The translations under genes and the position numbers were made by a program. Shown here piece by piece: positions 25,071 through 39,235 of a stretch of 41,681 nucleotides of DNA. Under the pieces are notes generated by a model. The model worked only from the letters and a program-made list of their open reading frames with translations. It was not told where the DNA came from and made no database searches. Source of the DNA: Desulforegula conservatrix Mb1Pa (GTDB taxonomy: Bacteria; Desulfobacterota; Desulfobacteria; Desulfobacterales; Desulforegulaceae); NCBI RefSeq assembly GCF_000426225.1, contig NZ_AUEY01000032.1, positions 1-41,681 on the forward strand, in the 5' to 3' direction. How positions within the stretch are numbered: the stretch's first letter is position 1; every line of letters begins with the position of its first letter.

Positions 25071-25237
25071 AGGGTAATTGGCATCAGGATTTTTGTTTAT
25101 ATAAAGTGCAATAAAAAAATGATTTTATAAAAAATAATAGTTGTTTTTTATTAAAAAAAGTATTAAGTATAGAAATCGACTGAGAAGTGGTTTTGGTCGG
25201 TCAAAAAGATTCGCTCCAAAGAAAAGATCCATACACA

Positions 25238-25292
25238 GTGGCACCTTTTGTTTTGGAACCAAAAAATTAAAAATTTAAAAGAAAGGTGTCAC
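25238..25292 (+). promoter_or_regulatory. Leader hairpin masking the cold-shock gene ribosome site
   Basis: GTGGCACCTTT (25238-25248) pairs with AAAGGTGTCAC (25282-25292) in 11 pairs with one G-U. The right arm contains the AAAGG ribosome site and ends one base before the ATG at 25294. The 33-base loop is AT-rich. The geometry suits a temperature- or factor-sensitive switch, in keeping with structured leaders of csp mRNAs. No function is shown. Confidence 0.6.
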
Positions 25293-25293
25293 C

Positions 25294-25494
25294 ATGGCAA
25301 ACGGAAGAGTAAAGTGATTTAATAATACTAAGGGTTATGGTTTTATTGAGCAGGAAAATGGCGTTGATGTATTCGTTCATCATTCAGGAATCAATGCTTC
25401 AGGTTACAAGAGCCTTAACGAAGGCGACAGAGTAAAGTTTGACATTGAGCAGGGCCAGAAAGGTCCTTCAGCAGTAAATGTTACTCTGATATAA
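25294..25494 (+). pseudogene. CspA-family cold-shock gene with in-frame TGA at conserved Trp
   Basis: Translation gives M-A-N-G-R-V-K, then TGA (25315-25317), then [12 protein letters not shown] and on to a TAA at 25492. The rest is an intact 66-codon cold-shock domain with both RNA-binding patches, K-G-Y-G-F-I and V-F-V-H-H. TGA stands where the family has Trp (TGG) in K-W-F, so one G-to-A change explains it. An AAAGG ribosome site, masking hairpin and strong terminator frame it. It may be a fresh pseudogene, a read-through gene or a base-call error. Other genes here end at TGA (elbB, greA), so TGA is a stop in this genome. No selenocysteine hairpin is obvious after it. Confidence 0.75.
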
Positions 25495-25514: not shown

Positions 25515-25549
25515 AAGGCGTCTCTTTGTAAAAAGAGACGCCTTTTTTT
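25515..25549 (+). terminator. Strong intrinsic terminator of the cold-shock gene
   Basis: AAGGCGTCTCTTT (25515-25527) and AAAGAGACGCCTT (25532-25544) form a perfect 13-bp stem closed by a GTAA tetraloop and followed by further T residues to 25549. It lies 20 bases past the cold-shock stop. Confidence 0.92.
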
Positions 25550-25666
25550 ATTCCAGCATATCTACCAATCCTTATTTACTTCCAACTCACAACTTGTTTC
25601 TTATCTGACTCAAAGAATATTTTTGGTATTGCCGATCTGATTTATGGGAAACCCATTTGAAATATT

Positions 25667-25800
25667 TTGACAAGGCCGCAAAAAGTCAGATTACCGTCAT
25701 TCCGGCTTAGGGCTGAATCCATAAGTATCTGAACATACCGGATGCCGTGTCAAGTCAGGCATGACGCCGGCGATTTTATTTGGCTTTTTGCGAGGCCATC
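25667..25800. repeat. Dispersed palindromic repeat, family 1, copy 3
   Basis: Starts TTGACAAGGCCGCAAAAAGTC and ends GGCTTTTTGCGAGGCCATC. The internal arms are inverted relative to copies 1 and 2 (CGTCATTCCGGC first, TCAAGTCAGGCATGACG second). Confidence 0.85.
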
Positions 25801-25883
25801 ATTTTTAATAGACCTTTATGAAAAATTCGTGATTTTAACCAGGCTGTACATGTATTTGGGGCTATTGGGATATTCAGATGATG

Positions 25884-30002: not shown

Positions 30003-30039
30003 AAGTGTGCCTTTTGTGAAATATGGAATAATTTCAATA

Positions 30040-30174
30040 TTGACAAGGTCGCAAAAAATCCGATTACTGTCATTCCAGCTCAGGCCGGAATCCAGAAGTA
30101 ACTGAAATTACAAAGATGTATGATCAAGTCCGGCATGACGCTTAAGCCATTTTTAGACTTTTTGCGATTCCATC
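30040..30174. repeat. Dispersed palindromic repeat, family 1, copy 4
   Basis: Starts TTGACAAGGTCGCAAAAAATC and ends GACTTTTTGCGATTCCATC. The internal order is CTGTCATTCCAGC first and TCAAGTCCGGCATGACG second. It occupies much of the divergent gap between the zraS-like gene and copA, so promoters there lie on its flanks. Confidence 0.85.
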
Positions 30175-30339
30175 AAAATAAACCCAAATTTTTTTCAGAA
30201 TATTAAAAAAAAGTCTTATTATTGTAATATCCTGAAATATTATCTGTCTTTATTCCGTGATTAGATTCTTATGGACAAGATATCATTTAGGATAAGACAG
30301 CATTTGCAGAATATCAGATAAATAGGGAATATAAACACT

Positions 30340-32805: not shown

Positions 32806-32816
32806 GTCTTAAATAT

Positions 32817-32951
32817 GATGGTCTCGTGAAAAGTCAAAAACGGGCAGTGTCGTCATGACGGACTTGATCAGGCATCTTTGTATTTACAGATACTTCTGGA
32901 TTCCGGCCTGCGCCGGAATGACGGGAATCGGACTTTTTGCGACTTTGTCAA
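32817..32951. repeat. Dispersed palindromic repeat, family 1, copy 5
   Basis: Starts GATGGTCTCGTGAAAAGTC and ends GGACTTTTTGCGACTTTGTCAA. The internal arms are GTCATGACGGACTTGATCAG and CCGGCCTGCGCCGGAATGAC. It begins 12 bases after the copA stop. Confidence 0.85.
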
Positions 32952-33003
32952 AATATGCAGGCATGAAAGATTCCAGATACATACAATAAATGAGGATTGG
33001 CTT

Positions 33004-39101: not shown

Positions 39102-39235
39102 TTGACAAGGCCGCAAAAAGTCAAAAAAAGGCGTCGGCGTCATGCCGGACTTGATCCGGTATCCAGTATTTTCGATTAGTTCTGGATTCCGGTTTTCGCC
39201 GGAATGACAGTAATCGGACTTTTTGCGAGTCCATC
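39102..39235. repeat. Dispersed palindromic repeat, family 1, copy 6
   Basis: Starts TTGACAAGGCCGCAAAAAGTC and ends GACTTTTTGCGAGTCCATC, with internal arms GTCATGCCGGACTTGATCCG and CGCCGGAATGACAG. The inner part has the same direction as copies 1 and 2 while the outer ends are swapped. Confidence 0.88.

Follow-up and report, generated by a model that had tools for sequence, protein, structure and literature searches.

An in-frame TGA at the RNA-binding tryptophan codon of a cold-shock protein gene in Desulforegula conservatrix Mb1Pa

What is to be made of a cold-shock protein gene that appears whole from leader to terminator apart from a single TGA, placed exactly where its relatives encode an RNA-binding tryptophan? 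Such a codon could be a fresh nonsense mutation, a UGA that is read as tryptophan or selenocysteine, or an error in the assembly, and a preliminary description of the locus had left the choice among these open. The gene lies in what we call the window, i.e., the whole 41,681-nucleotide stretch of the Desulforegula conservatrix Mb1Pa genome (contig NZ_AUEY01000032.1) that was analyzed. We favor, as the probable answer, a nonsense mutation of recent date by which one of the genome's several cold-shock genes would be mostly silenced; weak readthrough as tryptophan may soften the effect.

The cold-shock gene and its in-frame TGA

The interrupted gene lies at positions 25294..25494 on the plus strand, with a Sua5/YciO/YrdC gene (PF01300, 180.1 bits) directly upstream. 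Its frame of 67 codons, including the final TAA, translates as MANGRVK, a stop, 58 residues, and the closing stop, which would make a 66-residue protein if the TGA were read through. In a genome-wide profile search, the frame was matched by the Pfam cold-shock domain PF00313 with 91.5 bits and with the one TGA inside the match, and the score rises to 98.1 bits when the TGA is translated as tryptophan; by domain score, with a Pfam cut-off of 27 bits, the gene belongs to this family. It shares the whole domain with the CspA/CspB cold-shock proteins and can be aligned end to end with 3a0j and with CspB (1c9o). Unlike those proteins, it has a stop at the invariant tryptophan and encodes seven residues as written.

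The TGA occupies 25315..25317 on the plus strand (codon 8). When distinct homologs with an identity of at least 60% were compared, tryptophan stood at this codon in 91 of 91 and cysteine or UGA in none, and the corresponding Trp11 of CspA is described in PMC9947658 as stacking on RNA. In place of the RNA-stacking aromatic tryptophan of cold-shock proteins, the window gene has a TGA, and the preliminary description was right to place a TGA at the conserved tryptophan codon of a cold-shock gene. Among the other positions conserved in more than 90% of these homologs, the window gene retains 36 of 37; the lone departure is a tyrosine for phenylalanine at residue 38, which is also present in a paralog from the same genome (L001). 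Arg5 and Thr12 are residues absent from all 91 homologs, both at less conserved positions. When the rest of the frame was scanned downstream of the TGA, no in-frame ATG, GTG, or TTG was found. The genome holds six other matches to the cold-shock domain, all without an internal stop, small cold-shock proteins on contigs C53, C36, and C62 among them.

A search with a 38-base cold-shock pattern that requires TGA or TAA at this codon hit one of 389 genomes of the order, namely this one, which is the sole member of its family in the sample; because the pattern is this rare, the TGA match is not due to chance. Among 96 cold-shock hits extracted by script, the codon is TGG in 94, TGA in one (the window gene), and TCT in one, a secondary hit with 44% identity. 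Cold-shock protein matches were obtained in 57 of 58 genomes and, among the matches listed, had no internal stop apart from the window gene. A looser, 15-base pattern had hits in 51 of 395 genomes across the phylum, six of the hits falling in one genome. The idea that UGA recurs at this tryptophan across the phylum was nevertheless rejected: of the non-own loci with this pattern, 20 were fetched and inspected, not one of which is a cold-shock gene, and the 38-base pattern returned this genome only among the 389 of the order. In relatives, no cold-shock gene was found near yciO in 80 loci (L038-L117) with flanks of up to 5 kb, 34 of the 80 being shorter than 10 kb owing to contig ends. Six records of a plasmid collection matched, none at 80% query coverage, and of the five listed, four carry a cold-shock protein annotation. 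Searches of open-licence PMC papers found no report of a UGA at a cold-shock tryptophan in titles or abstracts, and none on csp leaders in Desulfovibrio.

Leader, ribosome site, and terminator

Upstream of the gene, the sequences GTGGCACCTTTT (25238..25249, plus strand) and GAAAGGTGTCAC (25281..25292, plus strand, ending one base short of the ATG) form the two arms of a predicted leader helix in which 12 of 12 pairs form, and the hairpin around it (25225-25300) has a predicted folding energy of -18.7 kcal/mol. Within the 3' arm, AGGTG at 25284-25288 is a putative ribosome site. Sixty-two leaders were aligned, picked by eye from 91 for a recognizable leader so that the counts are biased towards structure. 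The helix is paired in 79.5% of cells of this alignment, compared to 28.4-48.6% after a slide of one to three columns; changes on both sides are seen at 10 of the 12 pairs, and the covariation score was reached by none of 500 shuffles. A cruder test on all 91 leaders, unselected, gave a weaker signal, i.e., the longest helix formed with the region of the ribosome site averaged 7.5 pairs vs. 6.5 for a shuffled arm, and 33 of the 91 had a helix of at least eight pairs. All 12 pairs are formed in three of the 62 aligned leaders, that of the window included, and at two pairs the window leader has U-A where most other leaders have C-G. We infer that selection probably acted on the leader in this lineage up to a recent date. 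A covarying leader helix that covers the ribosome site is common to many csp genes of the order; in the window's copy, both arms are altered together and the ribosome site has drifted from GGAGG to AAAGGTG.

Downstream of the gene, an intrinsic terminator is predicted at 25515..25546 on the plus strand, consisting of a 13-bp hairpin (25515-25544, -21.1 kcal/mol) and a T run. The claim of the preliminary description that everything but the TGA is intact stands, for the coding positions and for both hairpins. The window gene also resembles the cspA thermoregulator of Rfam (RF01766), to which it aligns from leader to terminator with 50.5 bits (E 5.9e-12), a score below the gathering threshold of 78; no gathering-level match to RF01766 was found in the window, and the leader by itself gave no match to this model. 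Since the leader helix of the RF01766 model roughly coincides with the two arms given above, we do not claim the helix as a new RNA family.

Possible decoding of the UGA and the tRNA-Trp of the genome

Could the UGA be decoded as selenocysteine by way of a SECIS element just downstream, as the preliminary description had proposed? The genome encodes both SelB (381.4 bits) and a tRNA-Sec with anticodon TCA (77.6 bits), the two components expected of a selenoprotein producer, and a hairpin of -6.3 kcal/mol is predicted to begin at the UGA. Some TGG homologs form the same hairpin shape, however, and the 50-base stretch from the UGA onwards comes 70th among 91 in fold stability (window counted), with similar or stronger folds following TGG in homologs. 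General folding thus gave no UGA-specific form of the bacterial SECIS structure that the preliminary description wished to see sought after the TGA, and the relatives have neither UGA nor cysteine at the codon but, in 91 of 91, a tryptophan, at a site where this residue is described as stacking on RNA (PMC9947658). On these grounds, we consider selenocysteine extremely unlikely.

A genome-wide reassignment of UGA to tryptophan was likewise rejected as unlikely, as RF2 is intact (498.8 bits), UGA is a common stop, and no convincing interrupted gene was found in 27.8% of the genome. TGA terminates 296 of 842 genes (35.2%), compared to 28.9% of 471 in loci of relatives, which have a higher G+C; the marks of a reassigned code, i.e., loss of RF2, loss of UGA stops, and, in the part surveyed, many in-frame UGA codons, were all absent. 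When codon usage was surveyed over 1,239,681 bases (27.8% of the genome), 30 places emerged where a stop is flanked by coding sequence, 27 of them with a start codon no more than 20 codons away, as for neighboring genes, and three without a nearby start (two TGA, one TAA) with marginal scores; searches with Pfam and NCBIfam families gave no match for the two start-less TGA places. The survey requires 30 codons on each side of a stop and is therefore blind to lesions less than 30 codons from a gene start, that of the window included. That TGA commonly serves as a stop in this genome argues against an efficient readthrough.

The tRNA-Trp of this genome bears on whether a weaker readthrough may occur. 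The sole sound tRNA-Trp(CCA) found (G000:C1:124920-124992, i.e., locus L166, 1498-1573, minus strand) comes from an inventory of 41 matches, with 150 of 390 first-look candidates scored, in which ARAGORN recognized this tRNA and a second, broken copy; with the assembly 96.4% complete, a further tRNA-Trp could be missing from it. Its anticodon stem, GCGGA/TCCGA, has a G27·A43 mismatch that leaves four pairs, with A at position 9 and G at position 24. These traits agree with the Blastocrithidia-like 4-bp tRNA-Trp as set out by Fakih et al. 2026 (PMC13092985), namely a CCA anticodon, a 7-base loop, a broken top stem pair, and neither A9C nor G24A. According to that paper, overexpression of a 4-bp tRNA-Trp in E. 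coli raised UGA readthrough about 2.5-fold, in vitro work that it cites found no readthrough from unpinning alone, about 6.5% of standard-code genomes have only the 4-bp form, the form is associated with lower UGA use, and its significance at native levels is, in the authors' words, still to be assessed. Unlike the reassigned genomes with 4-bp tRNAs in PMC13092985, the present genome has the standard code, UGA as a common stop, and one candidate gene, which is known from sequence.

Among 116 related genomes, a tRNA-Trp pattern was matched in 95 and had no match in 21. The top pair 27-43 is broken in four of the 95, as G·A in this genome and G093 and as A·A in G326 and G019, and one further genome (G469) is missing the bottom anticodon-stem pair. 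Differences between the tRNA-Trp of G093 and that of this genome are confined to the variable region, and no internal stop was found in the cold-shock proteins of G093, G326, or G019 among the matches listed. Because G093 combines a nearly identical tRNA-Trp with listed cold-shock proteins free of stops, the 4-bp form would seem to be older than the csp lesion. The co-occurrence of such a tRNA, whose background is about 4%, with a stop-bearing csp gene was noticed after the fact and is suggestive and no more. A second tRNA-Trp(CCA) match (G000:C66:19632-19700, locus L266) was rejected as a suppressor, with two anticodon-stem pairs and one acceptor-stem pair broken and a score of 34.7 bits. This broken tRNA-Trp-like sequence appears to be a tRNA pseudogene or remnant.

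A probable nonsense lesion and its alternatives

Under the reading that we favor, a single nonsense substitution would recently have hit the tryptophan codon of a genuine major-type cold-shock gene. Most initiating ribosomes would halt after seven residues and, because no in-frame start lies downstream, no functional protein would follow and the copy would be largely silenced. The loss would be tolerable since intact cold-shock genes are present elsewhere in the genome and presumably compensate, and a little full-length protein might arise through misreading of the UGA by the 4-bp-stem tRNA-Trp. The intact leader helix and terminator, together with the single lesion, suggest that there has been little time for decay; along with the conserved positions that are retained, the restriction to one of the 389 genomes, and the ordinary use of UGA as a stop, this makes a recent mutation the best fit among the readings that the preliminary description had offered. 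It should be said that a functional readthrough gene would likewise show a fully intact frame and leader, that an assembly error would give the same picture, and that recency is judged here from one genome. Like the in-frame-stop genes of Belinky et al. 2021 (PMC7918605), the window gene has a frame that is conserved except for one stop. That study describes lone in-frame stops in bacteria as tending to be short-lived and reads in-frame stops as frequent readthrough or polymorphism, whereas the present stop is known from one genome.

That the UGA is instead read as tryptophan at a useful rate, yielding reduced amounts of the normal cold-shock protein, seems doubtful to us. The tRNA-Trp, with positions 27 and 43 unpaired and A9 and G24 kept, fits the 4-bp definition of PMC13092985, a form for which increased readthrough on overexpression in E. 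coli is reported there; the break is rare among relatives, and the inserted residue would be exactly that of all 91 homologs. Against this, TGA ends a larger share of genes here than in the relatives' loci, while PMC13092985 links the 4-bp form to lower UGA use; the same paper cites the lack of in vitro readthrough from unpinning alone and reports only this form in about 6.5% of standard-code genomes; among the matches listed, no stop interrupts the cold-shock proteins of the other three genomes that share the broken pair; and the association of tRNA and stop is a post hoc one. We would call it just as improbable that the stop serves as a built-in attenuator, whereby the sole 4-pair-stem tRNA-Trp would misread UGA, the leak would restore the RNA-binding tryptophan, and the nonsense codon would be tolerated. 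Nothing was found in support of the translational-fidelity sensor envisaged in the preliminary description. An error of sequencing, assembly, or binning, with TGG in the organism itself, is in our estimation fairly unlikely: one substitution in an otherwise intact gene of a draft assembly in 178 contigs is compatible with such an error, but the lack of any convincing interrupted gene in the surveyed part of the genome indicates that errors of this kind are uncommon, at least beyond the first 30 codons of genes, where the survey can see. We take the TGA to be probably a real and recent mutation at which termination would dominate.

Should the TGA be only a lesion, the locus would represent an early stage of ordinary gene loss. 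If the link to the tRNA is true, it would be a natural instance of gene-level UGA decoding by a 4-bp-stem tRNA-Trp outside reassigned genomes and would offer a clean test of such a tRNA at native levels in standard-code bacteria, its merits as a test case being one UGA, an invariant tryptophan, and no restart codon.

The window also contains a dispersed repeat of about 120-150 bases with inverted ends (GCAAAAAGTC..GACTTTTTGC), present in about six copies at about 347-480, 1391-1558 (split), 25662-25808, 30037-30175, 32809-32956, and 39112-39227. One copy lies just beyond the csp terminator.
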